In this document: piece after piece, positions 53,927-64,000 of the stretch
Layout of the letters: each line of letters starts with the position of its first letter
How positions within the stretch are numbered: position 1 is the stretch's first letter
Assembly (NCBI RefSeq): GCF_003664005.1
Contig: NZ_RCCJ01000001.1
Location: 248,001 to 312,000, forward strand
DNA: 64,000 nucleotides
Source of the DNA: Hydrogenivirga caldilitoris
GTDB taxonomy: Bacteria; Aquificota; Aquificia; Aquificales; Aquificaceae
Direction: 5' to 3'
Translations under genes and position numbers: made by a program
Notes under the pieces: generated by a model
Database searches by the model: none
Seen by the model: only the letters and a program-made list of their open reading frames with translations
Told to the model about the DNA's origin: nothing

Positions 53927-55114
53927 TTACTCATTCCTCAGTATATTGACCACATTCTCCTTTGCCGCTCTGAAGGCAGGAAGAAGGGAAGAGAAGAAAG
54001 ATAGAAGCAAGGTTCCCATAAAGGTTGCAACGAGGTCAAGGGTCTTTATATGAACGGGTATGTAACTCATCATGTAAACCTCTTCAGGCACCCTTATAAG
54101 CCTGTATTCGTTTATAAAGTATGCGAGTACAAAGGATACGATAACACCTAATGTGGCGCCTACAAAGCCTATACTCAATCCTACGGAGATGAATATTCTG
54201 AGGATACCCCTACTTTCCATACCGAAGGTCTTTAAGACAGCTATGTCCCTTACCTTTTCCTTAGATTTTACAAACAGGAGGCTCGTTATGTTGAAGGAGG
54301 CTACCAAAACCATGAGAAGCAGTATCAGGAACAGGGCTAACTTCTCAAGCTGAAGAGCATTGAAGAGGGGTTTATTCAGGTCTATCCAAGAGCGGACAAG
54401 CACAAGCTCGTTGCTTATCAGCTTTTCTATGTTCTCTTTAACCTCCTGAGCCCTGTAAGGATCATGTATGTAAATCTCAATTCCTTCAAAACGCATACCC
54501 CTCTTAAAGAAAGCTCTGGCTTCCTTTTCATCCATGTAGGCTATGACGAAGTCTTTATCGTAAGCACCGGTCTGGAATATACCACCTATGTAAACTTCCT
54601 TAGTCTTGGGTATAAATCCTGTGGGTGTCCTTATACCTGTGGGAAATATAAGGACAGCTGAACCTCCCGGAGATACACCCAGAACATCTGCAATACCCTT
54701 TCCTATAACAACGTCTTTAAGCTCACCCCTTATCAGGTGGCTACCTACAAGCTCCCTAAAAGCTTTTTCCCTGTAGTTTACAGCCTTAACTGTAACAGGT
54801 TGAAGTCTATCTTCCCTGCCGAGTATGGCGCTGTACAGTGTAAAGGGAAGAGTGTCTTTAACACCGGGTACATTCTCAATTTTCCTCCTTATACCTTCTA
54901 AATCTGCCTCTCCTATGACGCTTACGATTACGTGGGGTGCTGTTGAGAGTATCTTTTCCTTTAACGAGTCCTGGAATCCTGTGAACACACCAAGCGTGAG
55001 CAATATTGCGCAGACACTCAGGAAGACCCCCAGAAAGGATATCAACGTTATAAGAAGAGTGCTGCCTTTAACTGACAGCAGGTACCTGAGTGCGAGCTTG
55101 AATGTGAGACTCAT
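53927..55114 (-). CDS. Lipoprotein-releasing ABC transporter permease (LolC/LolE type)
   Basis: Membrane protein of 395 residues with one N-terminal helix (about 17-45), a large periplasmic MacB-PCD-like domain (about 50-245) and three C-terminal helices of the FtsX-like permease domain, including KVRDIAVLKTFGMESRGI and the final LLPAFRAAKENVVNILRNE (key PAFRAAKENVVNILR). Only one permease gene is present, so the transporter is probably a homodimer of a LolF-like protein. It overlaps the PilZ gene upstream by 4 bases. Confidence 0.88.
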   Translation of the reverse strand: MSLTFKLALRYLLSVKGSTLLITLISFLGVFLSVCAILLTLGVFTGFQDSLKEKILSTAPHVIVSVIGEADLEGIRRKIENVPGVKDTLPFTLYSAILGREDRLQPVTVKAVNYREKAFRELVGSHLIRGELKDVVIGKGIADVLGVSPGGSAVLIFPTGIRTPTGFIPKTKEVYIGGIFQTGAYDKDFVIAYMDEKEARAFFKRGMRFEGIEIYIHDPYRAQEVKENIEKLISNELVLVRSWIDLNKPLFNALQLEKLALFLILLLMVLVASFNITSLLFVKSKEKVRDIAVLKTFGMESRGILRIFISVGLSIGFVGATLGVIVSFVLAYFINEYRLIRVPEEVYMMSYIPVHIKTLDLVATFMGTLLLSFFSSLLPAFRAAKENVVNILRNE

Positions 55115-55809
55115 TCAATAAACCTCAGAGCCTGTATTATCTCCTTCTGTCTGTTAATTACGTACCTCCTTATCTTTGTAAGCTCCTCTTTTGGAAAATC
55201 AACCTCAAAACCAAGACGGACGTAAATGTCTTTACCCAAGCCAACCACATTCTTCAATCTACCTTTGCCAACTGCGGTACCGTTTTCTGGCAGGTGTATC
55301 TTTAGGGGAAACTCTACCGATTCGTCTTCTTTCAGCTCCTCTATACTATCCTGCAAAAACTTTACAAACTCTTTGTTCTCGTCAATTTTCAAGGACAATC
55401 CTATGCCCCTTTCACTTATATCCTTTACCGGGAGTTCAAACTTGTGTCCATCAAAGGTCAGCTCAACAATCACAGGTCTGTTGTCGTCAGGTTCAACACG
55501 AACGGAGTGTCTTTTGATGAACTCCGGAGGTTCAACGAAGTTTTCCAACGTAAGAACAAGCTCTTTGCCAAGGTTGCTAAAGACCTGTGTTTGAGCGTAC
55601 TCCTTTGAAGATAGTCTTATGTAAACCGGGTCAAGGGTTGAGAAGGCTGCCCTTATGTGGGTCTTTCCCCAATCAAATCCCAAGAGCCTCCCCTCGTTGT
55701 CAACCCATTTTAATCTCAGTTGGACCTTTACAGGAATCTCTTTGTATTTGGTCACTATGTCATACTGGTCCCCAACTTTAAATATCTCCGAAACCTTCAG
55801 CTTATCCAT
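55111..55809 (-). CDS. YcgR-like PilZ-domain protein
   Basis: Candidate c-di-GMP receptor of 232 residues with a PilZN/YcgR-N-like barrel (about 1-95) and a PilZ domain that has both motifs intact (R100-HSV-R104, DISERG at 130-135). It lacks the helical N-terminus of the other two PilZ proteins. In many bacteria YcgR-type proteins act as flagellar brakes, but here it is cotranscribed with lolC-lolD. Confidence 0.82.
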   Translation of the reverse strand: MDKLKVSEIFKVGDQYDIVTKYKEIPVKVQLRLKWVDNEGRLLGFDWGKTHIRAAFSTLDPVYIRLSSKEYAQTQVFSNLGKELVLTLENFVEPPEFIKRHSVRVEPDDNRPVIVELTFDGHKFELPVKDISERGIGLSLKIDENKEFVKFLQDSIEELKEDESVEFPLKIHLPENGTAVGKGRLKNVVGLGKDIYVRLGFEVDFPKEELTKIRRYVINRQKEIIQALRFIE

Positions 55810-59513: not shown

Positions 59514-60938
59514 ATGAGACTAGCCCCAAGAATTCCCTTTAAAAGGGTAATCTATGTAAAATGCAGGAATGGGTGGCTTAAAGCTTCTGGGGAGGACATA
59601 TCTCTATTTGGTGTTAAGTTCAGCCTTGAGAGATGGGAGGAATGTGAAGATAAAGACTGGGTAAAACTTAGGATAAAGTTTAACGGCAGTGAAGCAACCC
59701 TAAACGGGAAGATATATAGGAAAGAGAATAGCATTAGGGGTGTGGTTCTTTTCAATGAGGATGATTCCTTCCTTTCTAAGACGGTCGGACGTATAATAAC
59801 GACCCGCATAAAGGACAGCAGAACCTGTCCGTACTGTAAATCCCAGGTTAATGATGATGATGATGTAGAGTGCCCAAATTGTCATATGCCTCTTGACTTC
59901 ACAAAAGTTGACCTTATAAAGGCTCTCCGACGTATAAAGTTAGGGGATATACTGTCCGGTAAAGTTCCAGACCTGATAAAGGGACAGATTTGCCAGGAAG
60001 AGAAGGTAGAGTTTATAGGTACCTGCGATTGTATGAAGAAGGTCTTTGATCTGATAAGGAAGTATGCCCTTACGGATTATCCTGTTTTGATACTCGGTGA
60101 GACGGGAACAGGGAAAGAGCTTACAGCAAAGGCTATTCACGAGAAGAGCCCTCGCCGGAATGGACCCTTTATAGCTATCAACTGTGCAGCTATACCTAAG
60201 GAGCTCCTTGAAGCCGAGCTCTTCGGGTACGAGAAGGGAGCCTTTACAGGAGCTGATAAGCAGAAAAGGGGTAAGATAGAGGTTGCGGACGGAGGCACTC
60301 TATTCCTAGACGAGGTGGGAGAGCTTCCCCTTGAGCTCCAAGCCAAACTCCTCAGATTTCTGGAAGACCTATCCTTTGAAAGGGTAGGTGGCACTGACAG
60401 GATTAGAGCGAACGTTAGGGTAATAGCTGCTACAAACAGAAACCTTGAAGAGCTTGTTGAGAAAGGTCTGTTTAGAGAAGACCTCTACTACAGGCTGAAG
60501 GTGTTGACCATTGAACTTCCACCCCTAAGGGAGCGTGGGGACGATGTGATAGTTATGGCAAAGTACTTTCTTGAAAAATTTACAAGAGAGCAGGGTAAAG
60601 AGATATTGGGCTTCACCGATGACGCCCTTGAGCTTATAAAGAGTTATCAATGGCCCGGAAATGTAAGAGAACTCATAAACACCATCAGGAAGGCTATAGT
60701 CTTAACTGATAAGAAATACATTGATTCTGGAGACCTTGACATAGATGTAGAAAAGCTCTCAAAGGATATAAGCGGTAAAGGTATATTCAACCTGAAGGAG
60801 CACGTTGAAAAACTTGAAAGGGAATTGGTTGAAAAGGCTTTCAGGATCACCGGGGGGAATATAAGCAGGATGGCTTCTATGCTTGGTGTGAGCAGACCCA
60901 CCATCTACAAACTTATGGAAAAGTACGGTCTCCTTTAG
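59514..60938 (+). CDS. Sigma-54 activator with PilZ-like and zinc-ribbon N-terminus
   Basis: Bacterial enhancer-binding protein of 474 residues without a receiver domain. Residues 1-95 form a PilZ-like domain with both c-di-GMP motifs (R2-LAP-R6; DISLFG at 28-33). Residues 105-123 form a CPYC...CPNC zinc ribbon. An AAA+ sigma-54 interaction domain follows with Walker A GETGTGKE (195-202), the GAFTGA loop (242-247) that contacts sigma-54, and Walker B FLDEVGELP; residues about 440-474 are a Fis-type helix-turn-helix. GAGAGGGGGG is the ribosome site. The likely target is the convergent bcsA operon, which carries a sigma-54 promoter. It shares a 4-base TTAG overlap with the BcsS-like gene. Confidence 0.88.
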   Translation: MRLAPRIPFKRVIYVKCRNGWLKASGEDISLFGVKFSLERWEECEDKDWVKLRIKFNGSEATLNGKIYRKENSIRGVVLFNEDDSFLSKTVGRIITTRIKDSRTCPYCKSQVNDDDDVECPNCHMPLDFTKVDLIKALRRIKLGDILSGKVPDLIKGQICQEEKVEFIGTCDCMKKVFDLIRKYALTDYPVLILGETGTGKELTAKAIHEKSPRRNGPFIAINCAAIPKELLEAELFGYEKGAFTGADKQKRGKIEVADGGTLFLDEVGELPLELQAKLLRFLEDLSFERVGGTDRIRANVRVIAATNRNLEELVEKGLFREDLYYRLKVLTIELPPLRERGDDVIVMAKYFLEKFTREQGKEILGFTDDALELIKSYQWPGNVRELINTIRKAIVLTDKKYIDSGDLDIDVEKLSKDISGKGIFNLKEHVEKLERELVEKAFRITGGNISRMASMLGVSRPTIYKLMEKYGLL

Positions 60939-61606
60939 AATCCCCAGTAAAGCTCAACTCCTGCGTAGGCACTGTTTCCCTTAGAGCTATTCTTATAACC
61001 GCCTCTCAACCCTAAGGACAGACCATAAAACTTTAACTCTACGATAAGTCCGCTTTGAATGGCGCTGTAGTCCTTGTTCCCCTGACCTATGACCTCTCCA
61101 CCGATATTTAAGCTTCTGTTAAGTTCCTTTTTCAACCTTGCCCTTGACCACAGGTAAGAGGTGGCGGAGCTGTAGCTTGCTATAAAGTCTGCCCCATAGC
61201 CTTTTCCAAGGCTACCGTAAGCTTCTATCTGGGCAAGTAAGCTATCCTTCATACCTTTGACCTCAACCCCTGGTATATTCGGGCTTACATCGGTATCCCT
61301 TCTCTCCCAGCCTGCCCATAGGGTAAAACTCCATGCGTTGTACCTTCTCTTTACACCTCCTGATAGTTGAAAGGCAGGTGCTTCAGCTCTCACGTTTGTA
61401 CCGTTTTGCTCAAACTTATAGACCAGATAGTCTCCCCAAAACTTGGCAAGAAGTGACGTTTTTGAGTTAACTGACTTCTCAGCCATTAAACCAACGTAGG
61501 AGTATGACTGCCCTTTTGTATCAGCCTCAGAGCCTGATAAAAAACTGAGAGACTGAGCGTAAGAGCATGAAACTAAGAATGCGGTGACGATTATAAAATT
61601 TCTCAC
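60935..61606 (-). CDS. BcsS-like outer-membrane beta-barrel protein
   Basis: Secreted protein of 223 residues. The N-terminus is a signal peptide with a possible SPI site after SYA or a lipobox (LVSC with Cys14); I cannot decide between them. The rest alternates short amphipathic strands rich in Tyr, Phe and Gly and ends in the aromatic YWGF expected of outer-membrane barrels. Resemblance to cellulose biosynthesis protein BcsS is suggested by fold and neighbourhood. It starts 15 bases after bcsA and is co-transcribed with it, so it may help export or organise the polysaccharide. Confidence 0.65.
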   Translation of the reverse strand: MRNFIIVTAFLVSCSYAQSLSFLSGSEADTKGQSYSYVGLMAEKSVNSKTSLLAKFWGDYLVYKFEQNGTNVRAEAPAFQLSGGVKRRYNAWSFTLWAGWERRDTDVSPNIPGVEVKGMKDSLLAQIEAYGSLGKGYGADFIASYSSATSYLWSRARLKKELNRSLNIGGEVIGQGNKDYSAIQSGLIVELKFYGLSLGLRGGYKNSSKGNSAYAGVELYWGF

Positions 61607-61621
61607 GATTTACTCTCCTTA

Positions 61622-63772
61622 TCAGGTTGTTACCTGCATATCCTGTACTCCAAAGTCATAGCTTGGTCTTTGCACCAGAACTACTCCGTATCTGTATGCC
61701 TTTATGCCGTAAAAATTTATCTCCTTTGACCAGAGAATTTCTCCGTTCACGAGGCTTTCCTCGCCCTCACTGACGACCTTTAGTGAGATATAACGGCTTT
61801 CTATAGGTTTGTAGGTCAGTATCCTTAATCCCTGTTCACTTATATCCTCCGTTGTATAGGGAACAAAATCTCCGTTCACAAACACAAGACCCGGTCTATG
61901 GATTTCCAGTCTCTTGGTTCTTCTCTTGGGGCGTTTCTCTTTTAGATAGGAGACGACGAGGGATATCGGAGTGTTTGAGGGCTTATCATGTTTTTCCATA
62001 TACTTCTTAAGCAGAAAGCGGAAGTTAAAGAGATTTATAACCTTTTCCTCCTCTGGGGTTATGTTGTTAAATCTGACACCAAGCTTAAAGAGTCCTGACT
62101 CCTCTATCTTCTTTGAATACAGAACCTCCCCTTTGAGATTAAGCTTCCTGTCCTTGAAACTAATTTGTACCTCTATATTCTCACCCCTTTCAAAGCCTAT
62201 CTGAGATAGGAGCGCTGTGCCTCTTTCGTGGAGGTCCTCAACGGTGACGGCTGTATGAGTGTTCTTGATTCTCGCTATGGCAGGAAAGTTCGCCGGAAAC
62301 CTGAACCTCTCCCTTTGGTGTCTTTTGTGTAAGGTCCAGAACAGACATGCCCCGGCTATTCCAGTATTCAAAGAAGCCCAGAACATATTTGCCACGTAAA
62401 GGTCCTTGTTTGGAAGAACTTTAAAGTTCACGAGGGCGTAGAGAATACCCACTGCTCCAGCGCTGAGAACCCCAAGCTGTGGCAGAACTTCCCTTAAAGG
62501 TACTTCCCTTCCGTTTTCCTTACTGGTTACCCTGAATCCTGTCTTCCTTTTTAGGAAGCTAAAGACCGATTTTATAAAGGTAAAGAACCTTGCCATGTTG
62601 TACTGTTCAAGGAGCAGAAACTTTCCATGACCCCTTGACATCTCATCAAAAGCCCACAGGGATAGGAGTATGTGGGGCAGGAATACAGGTAGAAACTCTT
62701 TCAAGCCGACACTTATGGGAAATATCCCAGTAAGTAAGACGACTGCGGGAGCCGTGTAATATATCGCCTTCTGAAAACCGTCAAAGTAAGTTGTCATAGA
62801 GGCAAGGTAGCTTATCCTCTGAGGCAGACTCAATCCCCTTCTAAAAATTGGGTTTTCTTTGCTGAAAAGAATTTGCATAGCACCTTTTCCCCACCTCTCT
62901 CTCTGAGTTCTATAGGGAGAGAAAGTTGAGGGTGCCACTCCGTAAGCGAGGGTTTCTGGGTGGTACACCGACTTCCACCCTTTTGCATGAAGCCTTATGG
63001 CTGTGTGGATATCCTCCGTCACGGTTCCTGTGGCAAAACCGCCTATGCTTTTAAGAGCCTCTCTCCTTATGACTGCGCAGCTACCGCAAAAGAAGGCTGA
63101 ATTTATCCTGTCTTTACCCCTAAGTATCACCTTATAGAAGAGCGACTCCTCGTGCCATAACTTTCCTTTTGCAACCCTGTGCTCATAGGAATCTATATTG
63201 TAAAAATCCTGAGGGGTTTGAACGAAAGCTACCTTTTCATCCTCAAAGTATCCGAGGGTCTTGTGCAGGAAGTCCGGTTCAGGGACATGGTCGGCATCAA
63301 AGATAGCTATGAAGTCTCCTTCAGTGCTCTGAAGTGCGTTGTTAAGGTTGCCGGCTTTCCCTTCCGTATTCTTATCCCTGGCTATGTATTCACATCCCAG
63401 CTCCGCGCACAACCTTCTTATCTCCGGTCTGTTCTTGTCATCAAGGACGTAGGTCTTATGAGGGTACTCTATGGCGAGGGCTCCCTGTATGGTCTTTTTG
63501 AGTATATCAGGACTTTCGTTGTAGGTTGGTATGTAAACGTCAACCTTTAAACCAGCCTTTGGTGACTTTGGTTCTCTTTTTGGAAACTTCCAAACCATGA
63601 AGAAGAACATCAAGCCTGCTAAGAATCCGTAAACCTCAGCTCCGTAAACAAGAAGGGAAAAGAACATGGCATCCTTGTTCAAGGTACCGAGTCTCCAGAT
63701 AAGGTAGTAAAGGGAAACTCCTACCGATACAACAACTAAGGCTCTTCTCAGGCTATCTATATCCATGCGCAT
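61622..63772 (-). CDS. bcsA: Cellulose synthase-like glycosyltransferase with two PilZ-like regions
   Basis: Membrane GT2 processive glycosyltransferase of 716 residues. Two N-terminal helices (about 10-62), the catalytic domain with LDD (110-112), DAD (159-161), FFCG (227-230), TED (252-254) and QRERW (290-294), then further helices (about 320-390, 430-480). Two PilZ-like regions follow: the first (about 484-590) has R487-ERF-R491 but DLHERG (513-518) with His instead of Ser; the second (about 612-716) has R617-RTK-R621 and intact DISEQG (643-648). C-di-GMP activation is therefore likely. No bcsB or bcsC is in the window. The ATG at 63772 follows AGGAGGT; a sigma-54 promoter lies just upstream. 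Confidence 0.92.
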   Translation of the reverse strand: MRMDIDSLRRALVVVSVGVSLYYLIWRLGTLNKDAMFFSLLVYGAEVYGFLAGLMFFFMVWKFPKREPKSPKAGLKVDVYIPTYNESPDILKKTIQGALAIEYPHKTYVLDDKNRPEIRRLCAELGCEYIARDKNTEGKAGNLNNALQSTEGDFIAIFDADHVPEPDFLHKTLGYFEDEKVAFVQTPQDFYNIDSYEHRVAKGKLWHEESLFYKVILRGKDRINSAFFCGSCAVIRREALKSIGGFATGTVTEDIHTAIRLHAKGWKSVYHPETLAYGVAPSTFSPYRTQRERWGKGAMQILFSKENPIFRRGLSLPQRISYLASMTTYFDGFQKAIYYTAPAVVLLTGIFPISVGLKEFLPVFLPHILLSLWAFDEMSRGHGKFLLLEQYNMARFFTFIKSVFSFLKRKTGFRVTSKENGREVPLREVLPQLGVLSAGAVGILYALVNFKVLPNKDLYVANMFWASLNTGIAGACLFWTLHKRHQRERFRFPANFPAIARIKNTHTAVTVEDLHERGTALLSQIGFERGENIEVQISFKDRKLNLKGEVLYSKKIEESGLFKLGVRFNNITPEEEKVINLFNFRFLLKKYMEKHDKPSNTPISLVVSYLKEKRPKRRTKRLEIHRPGLVFVNGDFVPYTTEDISEQGLRILTYKPIESRYISLKVVSEGEESLVNGEILWSKEINFYGIKAYRYGVVLVQRPSYDFGVQDMQVTT

Positions 63773-63797
63773 ATGTTTTACCTCCTGGTGTTATATG

Positions 63798-63813
63798 TGC
63801 AATTTTCATGCCA
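63798..63813 (-). promoter_or_regulatory. Sigma-54 (-24/-12) promoter of bcsA
   Basis: The minus strand reads TGGCATGAAAATTGCA, matching the sigma-54 consensus TGGCACG-N4-TTGCW at all but one base, with the GG and GC elements 10 bases apart as required. The start of transcription would be near 63787, giving a 15-base leader that includes the AGGAGGT site of bcsA. Confidence 0.85.
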
Positions 63814-63865: not shown

Positions 63866-63882
63866 TGTATAGGATGTTTACA
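63866..63882. promoter_or_regulatory. Candidate activator site 1 (TGTATA-N5-TTTACA)
   Basis: TGTATAGGATGTTTACA: inverted arms with one mismatch and a 5-base spacer. The centre is about 87 bases upstream of the predicted bcsA transcription start, a typical position for a sigma-54 enhancer site. Confidence 0.55.
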
Positions 63883-63920: not shown

Positions 63921-63937
63921 TGTAAACACTCTTTACA
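63921..63937. promoter_or_regulatory. Candidate activator site 2 (TGTAAA-N5-TTTACA)
   Basis: TGTAAACACTCTTTACA: perfect 6-base inverted arms with a 5-base spacer, centred about 142 bases upstream of the predicted bcsA start. It is the best copy of the motif. Confidence 0.65.
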
Positions 63938-63940
63938 GAA

Positions 63941-63957
63941 TGTAAGTCTTCTTTACA
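63941..63957. promoter_or_regulatory. Candidate activator site 3 (TGTAAG-N5-TTTACA)
   Basis: TGTAAGTCTTCTTTACA: inverted arms with one mismatch and the same spacer, exactly 20 bases from site 2, about two helical turns, which would place two activator dimers on the same face. The remaining bases of 63773-64000 show no gene. Confidence 0.6.
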
Positions 63958-64000
63958 CAAAGTCAAAACTTTATAGGTATCCTTAGCTCAACCATATAGT

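Follow-up and report, generated by a model that had tools for sequence, protein, structure and literature searches.

The bcsA-like locus

Near one end of the window (the whole stretch of 64,000 nt of Hydrogenivirga caldilitoris DNA that was analyzed) lies a gene for a bcsA-like glycosyltransferase, followed by one for a BcsS-like protein (Table 1). The gene of a sigma-54 activator (enhancer-binding protein) converges on the latter, and no bcsB was found between the bcsA-like gene and this convergent gene. On the other side, across a gap of 190 nt and on the same strand, a FapF-like gene ends; it is the last gene of an amyloid operon. The initial annotation had named the glycosyltransferase gene bcsA. 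The name is one of homology: the product scores 431.9 bits against the BcsA family TIGR03030, whose curated cut-off is 699.1, and we write bcsA-like.

Table 1. Features of the bcsA-like locus, with positions in the window
Feature	Position	Strand	Basis or remark
Enhancer-binding protein gene (PilZ-type), convergent on bcsS	59514..60938	+	domain matches
BcsS-like protein (PF17036)	60935..61606	-	Pfam
bcsA-like glycosyltransferase, two PilZ stretches	61622..63772	-	homology
Predicted 15-nt leader; AGGAGG at 63786-63781	63773..63787	-	start inferred from -12 position
Sigma-54 -24/-12 element TGGCATGAAAATTGCA	63798..63813	-	consensus match, kept before bcsA orthologues
Proximal operator TGTATAGGATGTTTACA (on +), 1 mismatch	63866..63882	.	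52 nt from sigma-54 element
Operator 2 TGTAAACACTCTTTACA, perfect	63921..63937	.	107 nt from sigma-54 element
Operator 3 TGTAAGTCTTCTTTACA, 1 mismatch	63941..63957	.	127 nt from sigma-54 element; 20 nt start-to-start from operator 2
3' end of FapF-like gene, last of amyloid operon	63963..64000	-	operon beyond window (L033 6963-11814)

The sigma-54 element

Promoters recognized by sigma-54 have the consensus TGGCACGNNNNTTGCW. The element in front of the bcsA-like gene, TGGCATGAAAATTGCA, differs from it at one base, has GG at -24 and GC at -12 at the fixed spacing, and is separated by 25 nt from the ATG at 63772. The initial annotation had described just this, a near-perfect sigma-54 promoter 25 bases before the start codon, the only such match noticed in the intergenic regions of the window, with a short leader holding the ribosome site, and it has held up well. 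The element is the only match at one mismatch or fewer within the 64,000 nt. When up to two mismatches are allowed, the window holds three matches vs. 4.2 expected in shuffles, and the other two both lack the G of the -12 GC. The transcript is predicted to start at about 63787, and the ribosome site AGGAGG would thus begin at +2 and extend to +7, with a spacer of 8 nt to the ATG, in agreement with the short leader proposed.

The hexamers at 63798-63813 are modest evidence when taken alone. A scan of the 1.753-Mb genome at one mismatch or fewer found 15 sites vs. 7 for the reversed pattern, so that such hexamers are only about two-fold above chance; 9 of the 15 are intergenic by our own ORF calls. 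Confidence in the promoter comes from the operators upstream and from conservation. The genome also encodes RpoN (PF04552, one match, E 2.6e-48).

Operators upstream of the element

Three copies of a 17-nt near-palindrome, TGTAAA-N5-TTTACA, were read from repeated blocks upstream of the sigma-54 element. The motif was defined from these copies, and no further copy at one mismatch or fewer was found within the window beside the triplet. Genome-wide, it occurs 194 times at two mismatches or fewer vs. 58 times for the reversed pattern. A control with an N6 spacer gave 10 forward and 12 reverse matches, the reversed pattern giving 7 and 6, and no match fell on the bcsA operators. At one mismatch or fewer there are at least 15 operator places in the genome, the matches listed covering about half of it (to about 883,000); 6 of these 15 single-operator places are in the bcsA and fap clusters and 9 are isolated. 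The only other perfect operator among the matches listed for that half lies with two near-copies at 316911-317018, directly upstream of a sigma-54-like site at 316829, whose flanks were read only after the motif search had matched there.

Three operators each (at one mismatch or fewer, within 260 nt) are found at 4 of the 15 sigma-54-like sites, and the remaining 11 have none within the same limits. At all four triplet promoters the proximal operator is 52-74 nt from the sigma-54 site and the outer pair is 20 nt apart. The probability that at least three of the other 14 sites would have two operators is about 3e-7 at the rate seen in the window, a rough estimate because the rate includes the bcsA cluster itself. 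Besides the bcsA-like gene and the site at 316829, the triplets are at 953053 (L008 1501-1516) and 1383377 (L011 1501-1516), and the genes so preceded are the bcsA-like gene, the amyloid operon, a DUF7948/beta-propeller gene and a beta-helix gene, the last two of which probably encode secreted proteins.

The promoter at 316829 heads the six-gene amyloid set, which encodes a small protein whose start is signal-like, a repeat protein of 646 aa built of QDNNNNSVQLNDSAQSGAS units, two further small proteins, a C39 peptidase of the FilB/FapD type and the FapF/FilC-type protein. A Pfam scan of the repeat protein returned no family at E<=1. The scores against the curated families are 160 of 700 bits for FapF, 119 of 330 for FapD, 143.3 of 630 for FilC and 168.9 of 475 for FilB. 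Since all are under their cut-offs, the genes are best regarded as Fap/Fil relatives and not as equivalogs.

Conservation of the promoters

We examined 31 promoters in related genomes (14 of bcsA and 17 of the amyloid operon), with gene starts set by hand. The sigma-54 match with the most operators was chosen in each region, and the control was first-order Markov resampling. A sigma-54 site accompanied by at least one operator was present in 28 of the 31 and by at least two in 26, and in none of 6200 resampled regions. The other three have a sigma-54 site and only 2-mismatch operators (bcsA of G009, fap of G011 and of G001). All 14 bcsA orthologues are preceded by a site that keeps GG and GC and has two mismatches at most, and in 13 it is joined by an operator. 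The distance from operator to sigma-54 site averages 59.2 nt (SD 11.2, n=28). In the amyloid set, the promoters of G016 (L191) and G040 (L195) lie on contigs that do not connect to the C39 gene, one of two promoters was counted in G078, and those of G005, G014, G009, G006 and G094 were left out, as the contig stops within the operon or close to it.

In four genomes of the genus g3, neither fap nor the activator shares a contig with bcsA, and fap lies about 20 kb from the activator or on a separate contig. All four keep three operators before bcsA, and the amyloid promoter does likewise. Taken with RpoN and the recurrence in 13 of 14 orthologues, the operators support the assignment of the sigma-54 promoter to the bcsA-like gene, and the promoter is very probably real; with its conserved triple operator it is almost certain on sequence grounds. 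The finding is larger than the one initially annotated, as it adds the operators, a nearby activator of the PilZ type and an adjoining amyloid operon.

The PilZ-type activator

The activator encoded by the convergent gene has a PilZ domain (about residues 1-102), a zinc ribbon (105-123), an AAA+ sigma-54 interaction domain with lid (168-413) and a Fis-type HTH (431-471). The AAA+ domain carries GAFTGA and, together with the HTH, marks the product as an enhancer-binding protein. PilZ scores 30.6 bits vs. the Pfam cut-off of 22.5. When 22 orthologues were scanned, PF00158 and PF02954 were seen in all and Pfam PilZ in 19; four (L090, L092, L094, and L095) have GAFTDA instead of GAFTGA in the loop that contacts sigma-54. 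PilZ domains that bind c-di-GMP have the motifs RxxxR and [DN]xSxxG. The corresponding residues in the window activator are R2, R6 and DISLFG. All 25 full-length orthologues retain MRxxxR and [DN]xS; four of the 25 have Ala in place of the last Gly of [DN]xSxxG.

The N-terminal 128 residues were modeled at pLDDT 89. In the PDB this model is closest in fold to the PilZ domains of cellulose synthase, PA0012, Alg44, MapZ, and MotI, several of them c-di-GMP-bound structures; a profile search of PDB sequences with the N-terminal part gave nothing at E<=1. The fold comparison used the N-terminal model and not the full-length one (mean pLDDT 81, pTM 0.48). The recognition helix of the PilZ activators reads SRP[TK]xY. 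They form a single clade in two trees (support 100/100 and 96/100), the second of which included five paralogues from the genome of the window and dropped five long rows. PrsR-like proteins appeared as the sister of the clade in one tree (92/86); no sister was resolved in the second, and the placement was not retained. The window encodes another PilZ protein at 55111-55809 (PF07238, 29 bits), an apparent relative of which adjoins a small-protein promoter with three operators in G016 (L191).

Co-occurrence across related genomes

Every search covered the same 101 related genomes, and it should be noted that relatedness inflates the counts. The activator is found in 26 of them (E<1e-149; the next matches are at about E 1e-92), counting G015, whose contig breaks off at the PilZ end. 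At the search threshold bcsA matches in 23 genomes. Of these, 14 match at E<=1e-230 and are all within the 26; none of the other nine, whose matches are weaker (E 1e-64 to 1e-77), is among the 26. The C39 peptidase of the FapD/FilB type likewise matches in 26 genomes at threshold. We rejected as too generous the reading that this set of 26 and that of the activator are equal, because in G086, G090, G092, and G093, all of which have the activator, the match is a weak one, at E 1e-10 to 1e-22, and no fapF adjoins it. These four are taken to be without a peptidase of this type, and we use the 22 genomes with matches at E<=3e-60, all of which are within the 26. Weak second C39 matches occur likewise in G079 and G082.

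Paired operators are present in 17 of the 101 genomes, again all within the 26. None were found in the 75 genomes without the activator, and the reversed pattern gave none in the 101. The strict pattern finds no pair in 9 of the 26 genomes with the activator; G005, G006, G014, and G098 are among these nine, yet operators were found in them when the promoters were examined.

A survey of 80 named fap loci, with flanks of differing length, included five Aquificota records. No PilZ-type activator was seen beside fap in the 75 non-Aquificota loci. One of the loci surveyed (L251) has a 1058-aa enhancer-binding-like ORF near fap that matches from query residue 164, and its N-terminal part was left unclassified. 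Searching 50 of the 75 non-Aquificota fap genomes with the activator gave matches in 49, and among the matches listed none begins before query residue 123. When 30 such proteins with loci were aligned, the earliest start was at query residue 106 (L305). Six of these 30 were scanned, three being PrsR above the cut-off and three below. On three Campylobacterota MAG contigs (L198, L202, and L203), operators at one mismatch or fewer were not seen, the region upstream of the amyloid gene being present only in L202; these contigs carry fap-like genes with a C39 peptidase 49-53% identical to the Aquificales one.

A model for regulation and its alternatives

We consider it likely, with some assurance, that a PilZ-fused enhancer-binding protein, probably responsive to c-di-GMP, drives a sigma-54 matrix regulon that includes the bcsA-like gene and the amyloid operon. 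Sigma-54 RNA polymerase would transcribe the bcsA-like operon from the site at 63798-63813. Activation would require the PilZ-AAA+-HTH protein, bound to the three operators, whose centers lie upstream of the predicted start by about 87, 142 and 162 nt. Filling of the N-terminal PilZ domain by c-di-GMP would let the AAA+ ring assemble, and the promoter would be opened by DNA looping. The same protein would also fire the Fap/Fil-like amyloid operon and at least two genes of secreted proteins. Operator binding, c-di-GMP binding, and activation rather than inhibition are what we infer from the elements, their conservation and co-occurrence, and the predicted PilZ fold. With one activator for both gene sets, polysaccharide and amyloid matrix would rise together. 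And since the synthase bears PilZ domains of its own, c-di-GMP would have two points of action, transcription and the enzyme itself.

That the element is a chance consensus match is hardly credible: the 15 genomic sites vs. 7 for the reversed pattern leave room for it, but the operators, their spacing and their conservation across orthologues do not. It is very unlikely that the sigma-54 site is a relic and that bcsA is expressed either from a sigma-70 promoter in the gap or by read-through of transcription that begins at the amyloid operon. Such expression would be favored by the shared strand, by the shortness of the gap, in which no terminator-like site was found, and by one sigma-70-like match (9/12) on the same strand at about 63966-63939; the region scanned holds 12 sigma-70-like matches vs. 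6.7 in shuffles. It does not account, however, for the four genomes with bcsA off the fap contig, where the sigma-54 site and three operators are kept.

The identity of the activator and that of its signal are separate matters. The sequence evidence makes the PilZ protein the likely activator of the bcsA promoter. The genome has seven strong matches to enhancer-binding proteins, the PilZ activator and six others, any of which could in principle own the operators and leave the PilZ protein a bystander. We find this improbable. Other enhancer-binding proteins, counted at E<=1e-60 (94 of 101 genomes match), are present in 68 of the 75 genomes without the PilZ activator, yet paired operators are present in none of the 75. 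The helix SRP[TK]xY, moreover, resembles that of PrsR proteins, whose motif, as given in the available text of the report, ends in TTTACA (PMC1569441), and both of the paralogues with recovered ends, out of the six, differ in the recognition helix. As to the signal, c-di-GMP is the probable one, judging from the motifs and the modeled fold. Some PilZ domains do not bind c-di-GMP, and the domain could be structural or sense something else, for example a metal through the zinc ribbon, leaving the regulon outside c-di-GMP control. The four activators with Ala for Gly lend this a degree of support, and a fold match shows no function, so we hold it to be a serious though unlikely alternative. It has to contend with the retention of RxxxR and [DN]xS in all 25 full-length activators, with best fold matches that include c-di-GMP-bound PilZ domains, and with a genome that has 25 GGDEF matches and PilZ also on the bcsA product.

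Comparison with known systems

In the available part of its description, the PrsR regulon of PEP-CTERM genes in Proteobacteria has a 17-nt motif that ends in TTTACA, is sometimes repeated and stands on average 62.8 nt (SD 10.6) from the -24/-12 element, PrsR being a two-component activator with the kinase PrsK (Haft 2006, PMC1569441). On that description, the two systems share an operator length of 17 nt, the TTTACA end and a spacing of about 60 nt, with usually three copies in the Aquificales; the comparison is one of length, end, repetition and spacing, the full PrsR motif not being part of it. The two are also alike, so far as the description goes, in having extracellular, exopolysaccharide-linked targets. 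The targets themselves differ: PEP-CTERM genes in the available account of PrsR, and amyloid, bcsA-like and other probable secreted genes in the Aquificales. Among the NCBIfam families the activator matches PrsR (TIGR02915) best, at 409.4 bits vs. the cut-off of 502.6, with the next family at 366.9; the match is limited to residues 165-473, which cover the AAA+ domain and HTH. The SRP[TK]xY helix is common to the Aquificales activator and proteins such as L276 and L277, which pass the PrsR cut-off. The activator is nevertheless not a PrsR, because PilZ and zinc ribbon stand where PrsR has its receiver domain and the TIGR02915 cut-off is missed. Given the matching motif length, TTTACA end and spacing, it resembles a switch of the PrsR type whose input domain has been changed.

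The combination of c-di-GMP, RpoN and matrix genes is already known. In the literature searched, which reached few subscription papers, we found no PilZ-fused sigma-54 activator, no joint amyloid and polysaccharide targets and no PrsR-like operator in Aquificales, nor any account of matrix regulation in Aquificales. To our knowledge, VpsR has no PilZ domain. FleQ and VpsR are described, in the portion of the report available, as NtrC-family c-di-GMP-binding regulators of matrix genes, FleQ having a divergent receiver domain and binding c-di-GMP at the AAA+ domain, unlike the PilZ-fused activator (PMC12564702). BerB of Burkholderia cenocepacia activates exopolysaccharide control in a manner dependent on c-di-GMP and RpoN; the available text describes it as without an N-terminal sensory domain and as acting through BerA, whereas the Aquificales activator has an N-terminal PilZ (PMC5552954). 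BrfA of Pseudomonas fluorescens PF07 responds to c-di-GMP and acts with RpoN at the fap promoter, its gene lying reversed just downstream of fapA-F (PMC9207406, PMC13101488). This convergent order is also found in six Aquificales loci (L090-L095). The word PilZ is absent from the available text of both reports on BrfA, and no cellulose target is described there (PMC9207406, PMC13101488).

On balance, we lean toward the view that enhancer-binding proteins of a class not described before, with the order PilZ-zinc ribbon-AAA+-Fis, govern a whole matrix regulon in the Aquificales through a PrsR-like operator and geometry, the input having been exchanged between phosphorylation and c-di-GMP. If so, c-di-GMP control of matrix genes would sit in a PilZ domain fused to the sigma-54 activator, and the regulon would comprise amyloid, a cellulose-like or Wza/Wzc-type polysaccharide, and secreted beta-helix and beta-propeller proteins. 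A single promoter guess thereby becomes a defined, testable regulon in thermophiles. The likeness suggests a matrix operator code that is common to different phyla and in which the sensor domain is exchanged.

Further targets

The operator is short and distinctive enough to locate targets in related genomes. In family f3, operators and a -24/-12 site precede operons with Glycos_transf_4, Wza-like and Wzc-like genes (L085 4113-4300 in G079; L188 4992-5186 in G090). Activator genomes of this family are without this bcsA, and a different polysaccharide may thus replace it. At two paired-operator places (L185 in G086 and L186 in G092) no sigma-54 site was found within the set limits. Short proteins that resemble the start of the amyloid protein (L193 and L194) are also preceded by operators and a sigma-54 site, the one in L193 having no Pfam match, and the same holds for other probable secreted proteins (L189 and L190). 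In the genome of the window, a sigma-54-like site at 199912 (L003 1501-1516) is without these operators. It precedes a 167-aa ORF near another enhancer-binding protein gene (200434) and perhaps belongs to a separate regulon.
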